NCBI GenBank assembly: GCA_028718945.1
Contig: JAQUKT010000008.1
Span: 1-37,435, forward strand
Direction of reading: 5' to 3'
DNA length: 37,435 nucleotides
DNA from: Actinomycetota bacterium
GTDB taxonomy: Bacteria > Actinomycetota > Geothermincolia > Fen-727 > JAQUKT01
Both the position numbers and the translations under genes were made by a program. The first letter of the stretch is position 1, and the number at the start of each line of letters is the position of its first letter. Below the pieces are notes generated by a model. That model made no database searches and was not told the DNA's origin. It saw only the letters and a program-made list of their open reading frames with translations. This document shows, in pieces, positions 1,553-6,695 of the stretch.

Positions 1553-2299
1553 CTATTGATAAGAAGTTTTTGTTCCCAGTGCCCAGAATATCGGAACTAT
1601 AAGCATCTTCCCCGATGAAACCTGCGCTTTTTCTTTATCGAGAAGGTTTTTTGCGCCAATTTCAGGGAAAACGCTCAAATCATCAAGGTAAACTTCAAGG
1701 TTAGATTCGAGCTCTTCCTCAAGGTTTTTTTCTTCGAGAATCGTAGATGAAACCCCCCACTCGACACTGAAACCGGATTTCCTCAAAAGGAAGCCCAATT
1801 TTCTCCCGATGCGAGAATCCGCTCCCTGCCTCTTCAATGATTCCTCTAAGGCAAACGAGAAATCGGGGTTTTCGGGAAACTCAACTCTTCCACCGTAGTC
1901 TGGTTCCGCGGAGATAAGGAGCAGGCCCCCCGGTTCGAGTACCCTTCTAATCTCGGACAGCACCTGAAGTGGTTCTTTGAGCCACATAAAGACGAAATGA
2001 GAGGTAAGAAGGTCGAATTCATTATCATTGAAAGGAAGGCTTGAAATGTCGGAGACAAAGAACTCTATTTCGGGGAAGCTTTTTCTCGCAAGCTCGATAA
2101 ATTCATTGTTGCCATCGACGCCGGTAACCCTTCCCTGCGAAAGCGATGCGATCTCAGCAGTGATTTCTCCCGTTCCGCAGCCGATGTCGAGAATAGCCCT
2201 TCTCCTCCCTATTCCAGCCTTTCGATAAAGATGGCGCCTCAGTTGGGCGGTTGAATGCGACTGATGCTTCAAGAAACCAGGGATTCCAGCATGATTCAT
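1553..2299 (-). CDS. Class I SAM-dependent methyltransferase
   Basis: 248 aa; ILDIGCGTGEITAEIA motif I, VTGVDGN motif II, VLEPGGLLLIS post-motif; starts 18 nt after the radical SAM gene. Confidence 0.9.
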   Translation of the reverse strand: MNHAGIPGFLKHQSHSTAQLRRHLYRKAGIGRRRAILDIGCGTGEITAEIASLSQGRVTGVDGNNEFIELARKSFPEIEFFVSDISSLPFNDNEFDLLTSHFVFMWLKEPLQVLSEIRRVLEPGGLLLISAEPDYGGRVEFPENPDFSFALEESLKRQGADSRIGRKLGFLLRKSGFSVEWGVSSTILEEKNLEEELESNLEVYLDDLSVFPEIGAKNLLDKEKAQVSSGKMLIVPIFWALGTKTSYQ

Positions 2300-2317: not shown

Positions 2318-3688
2318 CTAAATCGAGGACTTGCTCTCAACGCAGATGAACTCCGCACTTTCCCAGGAGAGCGGGCAGCCACCCCCGCACAGAGGGAATA
2401 GTTCACATTCCTGACATGTTTTGTCCGCAAACCCCTTTTCCCTCAAGAGGCGACAGGTAGGGCTTTCCCAGATATCCTTCCATTCGTCGGTCAGGATGTT
2501 TCCACACGGCTCGTAGTATGATTGACAGGGAATCACGTCTCCGTTCGGCTCGACGCACATGTTGAACTTTGCCGCAGTGCACTGCTTTGGTCCAAGACCG
2601 AGCGTTATGGGATTGAATCTGCAATACTTGGTTGGGGTGTACCAGATGAACCTCATGCCAAGTTTCCATGCGCGCTCCTTTGCGCCTTCCACTATTTCCT
2701 CCATTTCATTTTCAGGGACACCAAGCTTGCTCGTTTTTGCCTCTCCTGTATAGATTATTCCGTTCATTGCGACTGTCTCTATGCCGAGACCTTCAAGAAA
2801 ATCAATCGTAAGAAGGATCGTGTCGCGATTCTCTTTTGTTATGGTCGTATTGGTTATTGTATAAACCTTAGAGTTGACGGATGCTCTTATTCCCTCAACG
2901 GTCTCTTCCCATGCCTCGGGGGAGCCCACCATCCGGTCATGCACCGCGTAATCATTGGACTCAATCGTAATTTGAATGTGGTCGAGACCGGCATTCTCGA
3001 GCCTTCCAATGAGGTTTCCCTTCGCGAGGTTGCGCCCATTTGTCAGAAGCCCGCTTATAAGCCCGATATCCTCGGCGCACTCCACGAGCCCTACGAGGTC
3101 TTCTCTCAAAGTCGCCTCGCCGCCGGTGAAGACCACATGCGGAATACCTATTTCCCATGCTTTGAGAAGCGCCTTCTTCCAGTCCCCTTCTGTCATTTCG
3201 GGAAAATTCTTGGGGCGAGCCACATAGCAGTGAGAGCAGTTGTTGTTGCACCTGTATGTAAGAGCAAAATCAAGGCGATAGGGCGCCCGAATGGGCGTCT
3301 GGAACGGCTCGATTCTTTCCATCCCGAGATGGACAATCGGGCAGACATCTCTTTCCCTTTCGATGCGCTCGAGTTTTTCCCTCAGTTCATGAAAGTCCGA
3401 AAGAGCCTGCTCGTTGCTGATTTTGTATCTCGAGGTGATTCTCCTCACCGCCTCGTCATCACTTGCTCCCTTGAGAGCGAGTTTCGCGTACTCAACCGCG
3501 GTTTCATTCAAGTGAATGATTTTCTGGGCGTTGACGGAAAGGATTCCGGTCCCGTCTTCTTCCACCCTCAGGTGGAATCTATCCGCGCCGAAATCATCAC
3601 CCCTCTGGTAATGGTAAAGACCGGGCTTTATTGGTTCCGCTCTGGAAAGGCGCTCCTCAACCCGTTTCCATGGACCTTTGAAACTCAT
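2318..3688 (-). CDS. Radical SAM/SPASM domain protein with possible N-terminal PqqD-like domain
   Basis: CNNNCSHC (CxxxCxxC) radical SAM motif; C-terminal SPASM-type Cys pattern (CVEPNGDVIPC...CQECELFPLCGGGC). Start placed at ATG 3686-3688 (MSFKGPWKRVEE) overlapping the upstream stop; the 19 extra N-terminal residues in the ORF track come from out-of-frame reading of the upstream Cys tail. Confidence 0.93.
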   Translation of the reverse strand: MSFKGPWKRVEERLSRAEPIKPGLYHYQRGDDFGADRFHLRVEEDGTGILSVNAQKIIHLNETAVEYAKLALKGASDDEAVRRITSRYKISNEQALSDFHELREKLERIERERDVCPIVHLGMERIEPFQTPIRAPYRLDFALTYRCNNNCSHCYVARPKNFPEMTEGDWKKALLKAWEIGIPHVVFTGGEATLREDLVGLVECAEDIGLISGLLTNGRNLAKGNLIGRLENAGLDHIQITIESNDYAVHDRMVGSPEAWEETVEGIRASVNSKVYTITNTTITKENRDTILLTIDFLEGLGIETVAMNGIIYTGEAKTSKLGVPENEMEEIVEGAKERAWKLGMRFIWYTPTKYCRFNPITLGLGPKQCTAAKFNMCVEPNGDVIPCQSYYEPCGNILTDEWKDIWESPTCRLLREKGFADKTCQECELFPLCGGGCPLSWESAEFICVESKSSI

Positions 3689-5565
3689 CTCCCGCCTCCC
3701 GCACAGGCACACGCGCATCCTGCGCATGCACAGGCACACGCGCATCCTGCGCCTCCCCCGTGATAGCCGTAATAACGTGATCTAAGAATCGGGCGATAGA
3801 CTCTTCTATACTCCTCTAAGTTGACCTCCTTCACGAGTTTCCTCTCGAATTCGGAGGTGTGCTTTTGCGCCTCGTCTTGGATTGACCTGAATGCATTAGC
3901 TATTGCGGTTGCGAATTTCCCTCCCTCAACATGAGCCCCCCCCGCTGATGCCTGAAGGCTGCCTTCTTTTTCAAGAATTGAGGAGCCCCATGAAGGAACG
4001 GGATATATTCCACGGGAGAAAAAGTCTTTCAACTTTGCGCCGAAACCCGGGTCGAGAAGTAAAAGGGGTGTATATTGTTGAAACTTCTCGATTCTCTCTT
4101 GTGGCTTCTGAGCCTGTCCAACACGAAGCCAGGCTTCACTGCTTTCATTCTTGTAGTGAGAAATAGTCTCCGCTTCTGAGAAACCTCTAACCTTTTTTTC
4201 CACTTCGCTTACAAGACCTTTGAGCGCAAGCCTCAAAGATTCAGGCTCGATCAAGCCTTCCGGCGTGATTGCGCCGAGAAAAAGAGGATAATACTCCTTG
4301 TCAATGAGAGGTTTTCCAGCCCTCTTTAGCCTCAAGGGCTTGAGGCTTGTTAACGTTATCAGCCCTTTTGAAATCATGTCAAAGATAGCGACAGCAGTGA
4401 CTCTGTCGAGGTCCTGGGACAGGAGAATTGCCACTTCCGCTGGAAGCAAACTCTTACAAGCTCCCGTTCCTTCTACCCCTAACTTTGGCTTTATGTAGTC
4501 AATCTTCGCTCCCCGTTTCTTAACCCTTACAAATGAGAGAATGGTTCGTATAAGAGCGAGAAGCGCGGCAGCCAGCATGGGGAAAATACGCAGCCAGTCG
4601 GCTCCAGTATATGAATCGTAGGACGATCCCGAAACCGGCTTGTAGTCGGGCAAGGGCTGTCTTGGATAAACGCCCGATACATAAATGGCGGGGAAAGATA
4701 CTCCAAAAAGGTAACCCTCGGTTGGCTTCGCTTTCGATTTGACCCATGTGAAGGATATTATCCCCTCGGATGTGTTGCTTGTCGTAAATTTTTCCCTGTG
4801 ATAAACGGTTTCATTTGGTTTGACGCCCGGAGGGAATTGTATGGTAACGCTCAGGAATGTTTCTCCATGCGCGAAGCTTTTGCTCCACCAGGTGTTTTTG
4901 AACTCGAAAGAGGCATATCCCTTGTGCTCGGTGTCCGCATATACCATTTGATAGTTCTTACCGTGGAACTCGAAAACCCCCTTTGTGCCTGGCATGATCG
5001 CTCTCTCATTGAGGTGCACCTCGACCCCCGGTGAAACAACGCTCGATGGTTTTATGTCGTAGAGGGCGTTTCCATCAATCGCGGCGGAACACTCGGAAAC
5101 CTGATAATCGCTGGTTGGCATGCCAATGTCAACAACATCTATGGGGGCTCCCTCTGAGTCGTTTTCAAACTCAATTCTGTACCAGAAATCTATGGAGGAG
5201 TCCGTGTTTATGTTCAGTATTACGCTTTCGTAAGGGACCTCGAAGCTTAAGTCCTGGGCGGTTGCTTGAGGTATAAGAAGCGTGATTGAAAGAAGTAAGG
5301 CGGCAAAAACAGCTACACACAGAGCACTCGTTGCAGGCTTCCGCGCTTTACATAGCGTACCATTCCATAGATACTTTGGCGCTCGAGCGCCCCCCTTTCC
5401 ACTCCGGCTTTGCTGTGCCACCTCGACGTACATACAGTACGCGTTCGGTCGCGAGCCTTGTTGGCGCACAGAGTGACACTCTCGGTGCGTCAACCTACCT
5501 ATGGGGAGGTGCATTATGTTTTGAAATCTCTTAAACAATCTCAAGCTGCCTCCACGCTTTCGCAA
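3685..5565 (-). CDS. DUF2207-like predicted membrane protein with C-terminal Gly/Ala/Cys-repeat tail
   Basis: Signal-like segment (ALCVAVFAALLLSITLLIPQATA), beta-rich extracellular domain, mid TM (IFPMLAAALLALIRTILSF), large C-terminal domain ending YYGYHGGGAGCACACACAGCACACAGGGR. The true start is uncertain, probably internal to this ORF (about 5340-5430). Confidence 0.8.
   Translation of the reverse strand: MRKRGGSLRLFKRFQNIMHLPIGRLTHRECHSVRQQGSRPNAYCMYVEVAQQSRSGKGGARAPKYLWNGTLCKARKPATSALCVAVFAALLLSITLLIPQATAQDLSFEVPYESVILNINTDSSIDFWYRIEFENDSEGAPIDVVDIGMPTSDYQVSECSAAIDGNALYDIKPSSVVSPGVEVHLNERAIMPGTKGVFEFHGKNYQMVYADTEHKGYASFEFKNTWWSKSFAHGETFLSVTIQFPPGVKPNETVYHREKFTTSNTSEGIISFTWVKSKAKPTEGYLFGVSFPAIYVSGVYPRQPLPDYKPVSGSSYDSYTGADWLRIFPMLAAALLALIRTILSFVRVKKRGAKIDYIKPKLGVEGTGACKSLLPAEVAILLSQDLDRVTAVAIFDMISKGLITLTSLKPLRLKRAGKPLIDKEYYPLFLGAITPEGLIEPESLRLALKGLVSEVEKKVRGFSEAETISHYKNESSEAWLRVGQAQKPQERIEKFQQYTPLLLLDPGFGAKLKDFFSRGIYPVPSWGSSILEKEGSLQASAGGAHVEGGKFATAIANAFRSIQDEAQKHTSEFERKLVKEVNLEEYRRVYRPILRSRYYGYHGGGAGCACACACAGCACACAGGGR
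3701..3752 (-). repeat. Two 25-nt perfect direct repeats (3701-3725, 3728-3752), 27-bp period, encoding the Cys-Ala tail
   Basis: gcacaggcacacgcgcatcctgcgc occurs at both positions, in frame in the DUF2207-like ORF. Confidence 0.95.
5378..5515. other. Palindrome/hairpin-rich element (possible small mobile-element remnant or structured RNA)
   Basis: 14-bp palindrome GGCGCTCGAGCGCC (5378-5391) and a long hairpin GTTGGCGCAC-AGAGT-GAC-ACTCT-CG-GTGCGTCAAC (5460-5494); followed on the + strand by GGGGAGGTGCATTATG with an immediate stop (ATG TTT TGA). Confidence 0.5.
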
Positions 5566-5600: not shown

Positions 5601-6695
5601 ATGAAAGGCGTGGAAATGCAAAGAGGAGAAAAGATACTCGCTATTTCGGACACTCATTTCGGGGATGCCTCGCAGCTTTTGAATGACGAGGAAACGGTCG
5701 AGAAATTCATATCAATGCTTTCATCGCGAAGGGAACTGAGCGAAATAATCCTGTTGGGCGACATACTCGACCTCTGGGTAAAAACAACGGTTCCGGCTTT
5801 GCGTTGCGCGCGCGCCTTCATCAGGCGGGTTTCGGAGCTCGAGAGCATCAAGCGGATAACCTACGTTCCCGGGAATCACGACCATCAGATGTTCATGGAC
5901 GCTTTCAGGCTCGAGCAGGATGTAAGAATCATGCAGGGAAATCTTACTACTCCACGCTTCCAGCCGGCGCGCTCCTATGGAGAGACTCTGCTTTCCGCGC
6001 TTTCAAGCCACGGTTCGAAAGCCCAGTTCTCGATGGTTTATCCGTTCGTGGTTCGAGAAGTAACCGGGAGGAAGGTTGTTTTCACACATGGGCATCACCT
6101 CGATTTCTATGCTTCGGAATTTGGATGGGTGAAGACATTCTGGTTCGGGCGCCGTGTAATCAAGAAGAGAAGGAAGAAAGCCACCCTTCACGATATAGAA
6201 ATGGCAAACGTCCCCTTTTGCGGAGCGATGTCGAGTGCTCCATGGGTTCCAGAACTTGTGAGCGAGGCTTTGAAGTACTATCACGTAATCACTTTTTTCT
6301 CGAAGCTTTTTCGCTCGAGGAGAAGTCAGGTTTCGCCCCTGAGAGATACCCTCATACGCGAGAACTATGACGAGATACAGGGTCTTTTGCCTCTGTTAGA
6401 AATCACGGGCGCTTCCTGTTTTGTTTTCGGGCACACGCACCGGCCTGGAATGGGTCGAATCCAGGGGAGCGGTCTGCTCGTGGCGAATACCGGCGCATGG
6501 ACGAGGGGCGAGGACGAGTCGATTCCCGCTAAGACATGGGTTGAAATTGGAGCTTCAGGAGATGTAGAACTCTATGAGATGAAAGACGGGGCATCAAGCA
6601 TCGTTGCAAAAGAGAATTTGATTGAAAAACACCAAAATCGAAGGTCTGACCCTCCGACCGAAAGGAGACGGAATGGAGTGCCCGAGCAGGGATGA
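5601..6695 (+). CDS. Calcineurin-like metallophosphoesterase
   Basis: ISDTHFGD, LLGDILDLW, YVPGNHDHQ, FTHGHHLD, VFGHTHRPG motifs. Confidence 0.93.
   Translation: MKGVEMQRGEKILAISDTHFGDASQLLNDEETVEKFISMLSSRRELSEIILLGDILDLWVKTTVPALRCARAFIRRVSELESIKRITYVPGNHDHQMFMDAFRLEQDVRIMQGNLTTPRFQPARSYGETLLSALSSHGSKAQFSMVYPFVVREVTGRKVVFTHGHHLDFYASEFGWVKTFWFGRRVIKKRRKKATLHDIEMANVPFCGAMSSAPWVPELVSEALKYYHVITFFSKLFRSRRSQVSPLRDTLIRENYDEIQGLLPLLEITGASCFVFGHTHRPGMGRIQGSGLLVANTGAWTRGEDESIPAKTWVEIGASGDVELYEMKDGASSIVAKENLIEKHQNRRSDPPTERRRNGVPEQG

Follow-up and report, generated by a model that had tools for sequence, protein, structure and literature searches.

The window, a stretch of 37,435 nucleotides from an Actinomycetota bacterium (contig JAQUKT010000008.1), carries on its minus strand a gene for a membrane protein, then one for a radical S-adenosylmethionine (radical SAM) enzyme and then one for a methyltransferase. 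The membrane protein, named here the tail protein for the alternating Cys and Ala residues at its C-terminus, is coded at 3685..5421 (-), is about 550 amino acids long counted after the signal start, and has homologues in four relatives from the same order (G004, G007, G010 and G012) and in 53 further loci. An AlphaFold2 model based on an alignment of 54 sequences (the window protein and those of the 53 further loci; mean pLDDT 84) consists of a signal helix, a beta-sandwich, one transmembrane helix, a winged-helix-like and helical domain and a disordered tail. The signal peptide is a hydrophobic helix at model residues 3-22 (5275..5334, minus strand, as are all coordinates of these three genes), visible both in the model and in the hydropathy. 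It is followed by the extracytoplasmic beta-sandwich domain (residues 33-217, 4690..5244, pLDDT >90), by the single transmembrane helix (residues 249-278, 4507..4596) with a K/R-rich stretch after it, and by the cytosolic winged-helix-like plus helical domain (residues 300-508, 3817..4443), which is weakly TIGR04222-like. Because seven Lys or Arg residues follow the transmembrane helix and one precedes it, the tail and its Gly-rich disordered linker are predicted to face the cytosol, on the same side as the enzyme. A first-pass annotation of this DNA had proposed a signal segment, one transmembrane segment and a cytosolic C-terminus, a topology with which model, hydropathy and charge distribution agree.

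The invariant C-terminal tail, CACACACAGCACACAGGGR, occupies 3688..3744 and is part of a stretch, GGGAGCACACACAGCACACAGGGR, that is coded at 3688-3759, with the TGA stop codon at 3685-3687. The ATG of the radical SAM gene (3686-3688) overlaps this stop codon in a shared ATGA at 3685-3688, as had been noticed at first reading, and a GGAGG lies just 5' of that ATG, within the tail codons. The overlap and the position of the GGAGG make translational coupling of the two genes plausible. Synonymous codons are mixed within the window's tail, TGC and TGT for Cys and GCG, GCC and GCA for Ala. An origin of the tail by chance or from a DNA repeat was considered and is ruled out by this synonymous variation together with the reversed-pattern control described below.

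Family searches were made against Pfam and NCBIfam 20.0, in neither of which does a family cover the tail protein; no Pfam family consistently matches the window protein or its 53 relatives, and a sequence search of the PDB with the tail-protein profile gave no match. The label DUF2207-like, which the protein had been given at first, is not supported by profiles, PF09972 finding no match in the genome or in any of the 54 tail proteins. DUF2207 proteins do have a similar general layout of signal, beta domain, transmembrane helix, C-terminal domain and low-complexity tail. TIGR04222 scores 18.3 bits against the window protein, under its cut-off of 43 bits, and reaches E<=0.01 in 5 of the 54 tail proteins (best 3e-4). 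In Foldseek the beta domain resembles M1 peptidases and ribophorin I at TM-scores of 0.2-0.3, a general likeness that is uninformative on function.

The radical SAM gene (2318..3688) codes for 456 amino acids. Radical_SAM (82 bits), SPASM (37 bits) and PqqD (25.9 bits, residues 49-107) all match over their Pfam cut-offs, bearing out the SPASM radical SAM identity assigned earlier. The N-terminal PqqD-type RiPP recognition element (RRE; RiPP, ribosomally synthesized and post-translationally modified peptide) spans residues 23-111 (3356..3622) and is modelled by AlphaFold2 as strands then helices; the cluster motif CX3CX2C reads CNNNCSHC (residues 147-154, 3227..3250); and the SPASM region (2345..2623) has the pattern CX2CX5CX3C plus a terminal Cys. 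Across an alignment of 49 enzyme sequences the CX3CX2C cysteines are invariant and the SPASM cysteines conserved, and 39 of the 49 have a PqqD/RRE match. The closest folds to the enzyme model (pLDDT 90) are SkfB, SuiB, PqqE and CteB, all of them peptide maturases. Judged by these sequence features, the enzyme is of the radical SAM/SPASM peptide-maturase type with an RRE. NCBIfam 20.0 holds no equivalog for it. Its best scores there, far under cut-off, are to PqqE (113 bits, cut-off 381), AhbD and NirJ2. The curated sactisynthase families score SkfB 75 (cut-off 300) and StsB 82 (cut-off 625), with AlbA also far below its cut-off, and the ACGX system TIGR04340 scores 62 bits (cut-off 400).

The distribution of the tail was followed by scanning 85,462 species genomes for DNA encoding CACAGCACA, a pattern that demands two CA pairs on either side of a Gly. 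The scan listed 119 stretches, of which 80 were readable as loci, most of them from metagenome-assembled genomes (MAGs), and all distribution counts are lower bounds. With L040, L046, L053, L054, L060, L069, L101, L103 and L114 set aside as spurious or internal matches, the motif lies at the extreme C-terminus, ending in GGGR, in 71 of the 80 loci among the matches listed. The tail DNAs are all distinct (71 of 71 loci listed) and the peptides only five: (CA)4G(CA)3GGGR at 39 loci, (CA)3G(CA)3GGGR at 10, (CA)3G(CA)4GGGR at 9, (CA)5G(CA)3GGGR at 8 and (CA)2G(CA)4GGGR at 5. In the 54-protein alignment the tail columns are invariant; elsewhere few residues are, and the bodies are mostly about 30% identical to that of the window protein. 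Among the matches listed, the hosts are Chloroflexota (most), Actinomycetota, Armatimonadota, Pirellulales (Planctomycetes), Aminicenantes, Coatesbacteria, Acidobacteriota, Sabulitectum and relatives (Hyd24-12/Fermentibacteraceae), Zixibacteria, Edwardsbacteria, one deltaproteobacterial MAG and, among the Asgard archaea, Hodarchaeota, Heimdallarchaeota and Sigynarchaeota. A cultured host of the cluster is Ornatilinea apprima P3M-1 (L056). The Cys-Ala tail reported from the window alone is thus kept across phyla as well as in close relatives. In a comparison with 100 related genomes the pair of tail protein and enzyme is confined to the same order, where the tail protein is 47-52% identical in G004, G007, G010 and G012 and the enzyme 54-64% identical in six relatives. 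The tail reads GGGGGGCACACAGCACACAGGGR in G007 and G010 and GGSGCACACACAGCACACAGGGR in G004; the G012 contig ends within it.

The tail and the enzyme go together. A relative of the window enzyme adjoins the tail gene in 60 of the 64 listed loci with enough flanking DNA, although in a few of the 60 (e.g. L062, L070 and L074) the adjacent radical SAM protein is a dead paralogue, considered below. A tail without a linked SPASM gene, the counter-case named in the first-pass annotation, was found at L071, L088 and L089, in each of which an enzyme of the same family, 45-51% identical, is coded elsewhere in the genome (beside a methyltransferase in two of them), and at a fourth locus, L111. In an even sampling of the class Anaerolineae (199 genomes) the tail was present in 23 genomes and the enzyme family in 24, with both in 22, the tail alone in 1, the enzyme alone in 2 and neither in 174 (p=6e-26); the reversed pattern, run as a control, gave no match in the same genomes vs 23 with the real one. 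Pairwise distances of tail protein and enzyme are correlated over 39 pairs (r=0.93, vs at most 0.37 in 2000 shuffles), a value inflated by shared ancestry. Tails with a longer second block (type B) occur only with the YKAD clade of enzymes and in a different gene order. Linkage, co-occurrence and correlated divergence, with the RRE, the SkfB/SuiB-like fold and the predicted cytosolic tail, strongly support the earlier proposal that tail protein and SPASM enzyme would form one system. The other part of that proposal, that the tail is the substrate of the radical SAM enzyme, is likely, and we infer it from the same observations. Were the tail instead a sorting or assembly tag for another machine, the radical SAM gene being linked for an unrelated reason, an invariant and portable C-terminal signal would be expected, as in other C-terminal sorting tags. 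This explanation we hold to be very improbable, the co-occurrence of tail and enzyme being nearly one to one even in genomes in which the genes are unlinked, and no other linked gene being equally constant.

Several arrangements show the tail, or a relative of it, in other settings. In L192 (5024-8791) two different tail proteins stand in tandem within one cluster, each with the tail CACACAGCACACACAGGGR. In L194 (1-2907) a single open frame joins an unrelated 969-residue ATPase/TPR-like regulator-type protein to the tail protein's C-terminal module together with the tail, either as a genuine fusion or because the contig is chimeric. The tandem and the fusion suggest from their gene structure that the tail module may be portable. 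A different tail, (ACHS)n ending in CHSACVGRF and identical in two genomes, was found in Anaerolineae on a membrane protein with a domain weakly like the tail protein. Its gene directly precedes that of a PqqD-type radical SAM enzyme about 30-33% identical to the Chloroflexota enzyme, and the two form a paralogous pair (L164, 1639-4155 and 4017-5573; L165, 2226-4058 and 4062-5582). At L062 and L074 a second cluster on the opposite strand has a tail-protein homologue without the Cys tail and a methyltransferase nearby; the radical SAM enzyme beside the homologue itself bears a C-terminal Cys/Gly/Ser-rich segment, GGGCSGCSGSCGTGG, so that the Cys segment seems, by sequence, to have moved onto the enzyme.

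The third gene in the window (1553..2299) codes for a SAM-dependent methyltransferase (Methyltransf_11) with the motif AEPDYGGR, and is a conserved downstream partner. At least 30 loci, among them all three from Hodarchaeota/Heimdallarchaeota, have a methyltransferase with the AEPDY motif next to the pair; these partner enzymes are 27-43% identical to that of the window, and in several order relatives and Asgard loci the gene also follows that of the radical SAM enzyme. A second radical SAM paralogue is present in most Chloroflexota, and also in Armatimonadota and Pirellulales. CX3CX2C is missing in every copy read, and the Chloroflexota copies, which also lack nearly all SPASM cysteines, retain GGE[PA]T; the paralogue is likely to be catalytically dead and to act as a non-catalytic partner. 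The final SPASM Cys of the active enzyme is present in 9 of 9 loci with a single radical SAM gene and missing in 28 of 30 with the dead paralogue, a comparison confounded by taxonomy. A protein of 120 amino acids that combines two transmembrane helices with a zinc ribbon, and whose sequence closes with YQLTEEPKW or a similar string, is coded upstream in about 41 loci; it was sought and not found in the window's order, and has no family in Pfam or NCBIfam 20.0. The methyltransferase, the pseudo-radical SAM paralogue and the zinc-ribbon partner, together with the breadth of the distribution and the two-block form (CA)nG(CA)m of the tail, were absent from the first-pass annotation, which otherwise anticipated the pairing.

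In the clusters read, no peptidase, protease or exporter recurs. This result bears on the idea that the tail serves as a precursor, released by cleavage as a small RiPP once it has been modified, as in pyrroloquinoline quinone (PQQ) and mycofactocin, the membrane protein being a mere carrier. Such a pathway would suit the RRE-radical SAM architecture and the closeness of the enzyme to PqqE, but it would call for processing and export functions of which the clusters give no sign, and the entire membrane body is conserved alongside the tail. Moreover, the terminal GGGR is invariant, and a released core would therefore follow a leader of 500 residues. We regard this route as improbable.

Cys-rich tails bind metals, and the unmodified tail, with its 6-8 cysteines, could bind a metal or an Fe-S cluster and deliver it to, or scaffold, a radical SAM enzyme and a methyltransferase that act on another small molecule, for example a tetrapyrrole. 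The membership of the methyltransferase in the cluster and the ranking of PqqE, NirJ and AhbD as the highest-scoring profiles, far under cut-off as they are, would fit this explanation. It is nevertheless unlikely. The enzyme carries a PqqD-type RRE and is closest in fold to the peptide maturases SkfB and SuiB, the strict CACACA alternation and the GGGR end are tighter than metal binding requires, the tail type follows the enzyme clade, and a paralogous radical SAM enzyme adjoins the differently repeated (ACHS)n tail.

The reading that we favour, with a probability of about 0.7, is a maturation system in which a radical SAM enzyme takes as its substrate the tail at the C-terminus of a membrane protein. 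In such a system the RRE of the enzyme would bind the tail protein, and the enzyme would modify the repeated Cys and Ala residues of the tail (CA)nG(CA)mGGGR in place, in the cytosol. The product is hypothesized to contain Cys-to-Ala thioether crosslinks, each of which would join a Cys sulfur to an Ala carbon. Both SkfB and CteB have an RRE and form thioethers; in ruminococcin C, Ala is known to accept such a bond, and sactipeptides are usually folded as nested hairpins (PMC8172795). If the tail folded back at its lone Gly, residue -k would lie opposite residue +k, so that in every tail variant each pair would consist of one Cys and one Ala in a nested, sactipeptide-like pattern. The methyltransferase would then probably have either the product or the C-terminus as its target, and in Chloroflexota and some other hosts the dead radical SAM paralogue would likely serve as the non-catalytic partner. 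Because no protease gene recurs, the modified tail is likely to stay on the membrane protein, probably as a rigid tip that derives from thiols and may be metal- or redox-active.

A number of observations weigh against this proposal. The hairpin argument is only suggestive, since the parity of Cys and Ala holds for any (CA)nG(CA)m. The families that score best against the enzyme in NCBIfam, PqqE, AhbD and NirJ2, are not known to form thioethers. The linkage could also be explained if the tail bound some other molecule and the enzyme acted on that one. In L111 the tail occurs without such an enzyme anywhere in the assembly, an incomplete MAG; G103 has the tail and no radical SAM enzyme of the family, and G109 has the radical SAM enzyme and the methyltransferase and no tail protein, assemblies that may both be incomplete. 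In G002 (L025/L007, C48) the genes for the tail protein and the enzyme are frameshifted, and the shorter tail, CACACAGGGR, lacks the central Gly block, through either decay or assembly error.

The system has relatives among known ones. MNIO (multinuclear non-heme iron-dependent oxidative) enzymes have been proposed to modify Cys-rich C-terminal tails, predicted to be periplasmic, of TIGR04222 membrane proteins (Antoine et al. 2025, PMC12452194). In both systems a big membrane protein ends in low-complexity, Cys-rich sequence, a modifying enzyme is coded next to it and modification in place is proposed, and the cytosolic domain has a weak sequence likeness to TIGR04222, below that family's cut-off. 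The enzyme here, however, is a radical SAM protein, radical SAM enzyme and methyltransferase being the recurrent enzymes of the cluster, and the tail is strictly Cys-Ala and predicted to be cytosolic, whereas that of the TIGR04222/MNIO systems is Ser/Gly-rich with scattered Cys and predicted to be periplasmic. With the sactipeptide maturases SkfB, AlbA and CteB the enzyme shares the combination of RRE, radical SAM and SPASM/twitch domains, a Cys-rich target and the closest solved folds, but their targets are small leader-core peptides and not the C-terminus of a 550-residue membrane protein with a signal peptide. Sactipeptides carry thioethers from Cys sulfur to an alpha carbon. Unlike ranthipeptides (SCIFF and others, with e.g. 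six Cys in 45 residues and thioethers to a beta or gamma carbon), the system has no small precursor, and its tail contains only Cys, Ala, Gly and Arg. The ACGX system (TIGR04340), like comparable pairs in TIGRFAMs, also places a SPASM enzyme beside a Cys-repeat target; here the repeat is CACACA-G-CACACA and the target a large membrane protein, theirs a short peptide. As with the radical SAM/SPASM enzymes QhpD and anSME, a true protein rather than a small peptide would be modified. QhpD and anSME have other substrates and motifs and no Cys-Ala tail. By analogy, the system would work like a sactipeptide system and may be a variant of RRE-radical SAM peptide maturation. A full-text literature search, with most subscription journals and preprints outside its coverage, found no paper on the pairing of this tail with a radical SAM enzyme, the closest match being the TIGR04222/MNIO systems.

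The occurrence of the same tail and enzyme in so many lineages points to a peptide modification that has not been described before and that a large membrane protein would carry. RiPP enzymes are usually thought to act on short secreted peptides, and the pairing with the tail of such a protein would make the system the radical SAM counterpart of the proposed MNIO-modified TIGR04222 tails. That tail and enzyme are conserved in many phyla suggests that the modified peptide serves a basic function of the cell and is not a natural product for competition. To chemists the tail offers a compact substrate of about 19 residues and four amino-acid types, and the system provides a case of a pseudo-radical SAM partner that tends to occur where the active enzyme has lost its last SPASM Cys. 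A more elaborate form of the proposal is tentative and on balance doubtful: as many as six Cys-Ala thioether bridges, nested like the rungs of a ladder about the central Gly, would form a permanent, methylated prosthetic tip facing the cytosol, and the whole would be a module, either ancient or widely transferred, that many bacterial phyla share with Asgard archaea and that has a dedicated dead radical SAM partner in some lineages.

On the other side of the tail gene in the window lies a divergent calcineurin-like phosphoesterase (5601..6695, plus strand), a neighbour conserved only within the order, where a phosphoesterase flanks that side of the pair in the relatives. In some Anaerolineales (L043 and L109), about 1.4-2.8 kb 3' of the tail stop codon, a small PAS-like protein (EWIKEFPAAITVCDPEGIILEMNDKA...) and a 340-residue protein with a C-terminal hydrophobic segment are coded between the active and dead radical SAM genes.

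The start of the tail-protein gene is overlain by a dispersed repeat. Codons 1 to about 72 of the open reading frame as listed (window positions ~5350-5565) include one copy of it, and no ATG, GTG or TTG is found from codon 49 to the signal peptide; the nearest in-frame starts, GTG 5421 and ATG 5433, both lie within the repeat. For these two reasons, the repeat and the lack of a usual start codon before the signal peptide, the listed start appears doubtful from the sequence. The element is about 165 bp long (window 5353-5516) and has complementary ends, AGTGCACCGTCCCATAGATA ... TACCTATGGGACGGTGCACT. There are 19 copies in the same genome (among them those in L029, L035 and L189), at least 41 in G007 (L180, L184), 18 in G019 (L027, L031), a genome from a different family within the class, and 5 in G001 (L026, L182), and they are ~70-79% identical to the window copy. 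A search of Rfam matched it to no family at threshold. The consensus fold has 40 pairs, 8 of them with compensatory changes, and the element is a candidate repeat family or structured RNA.

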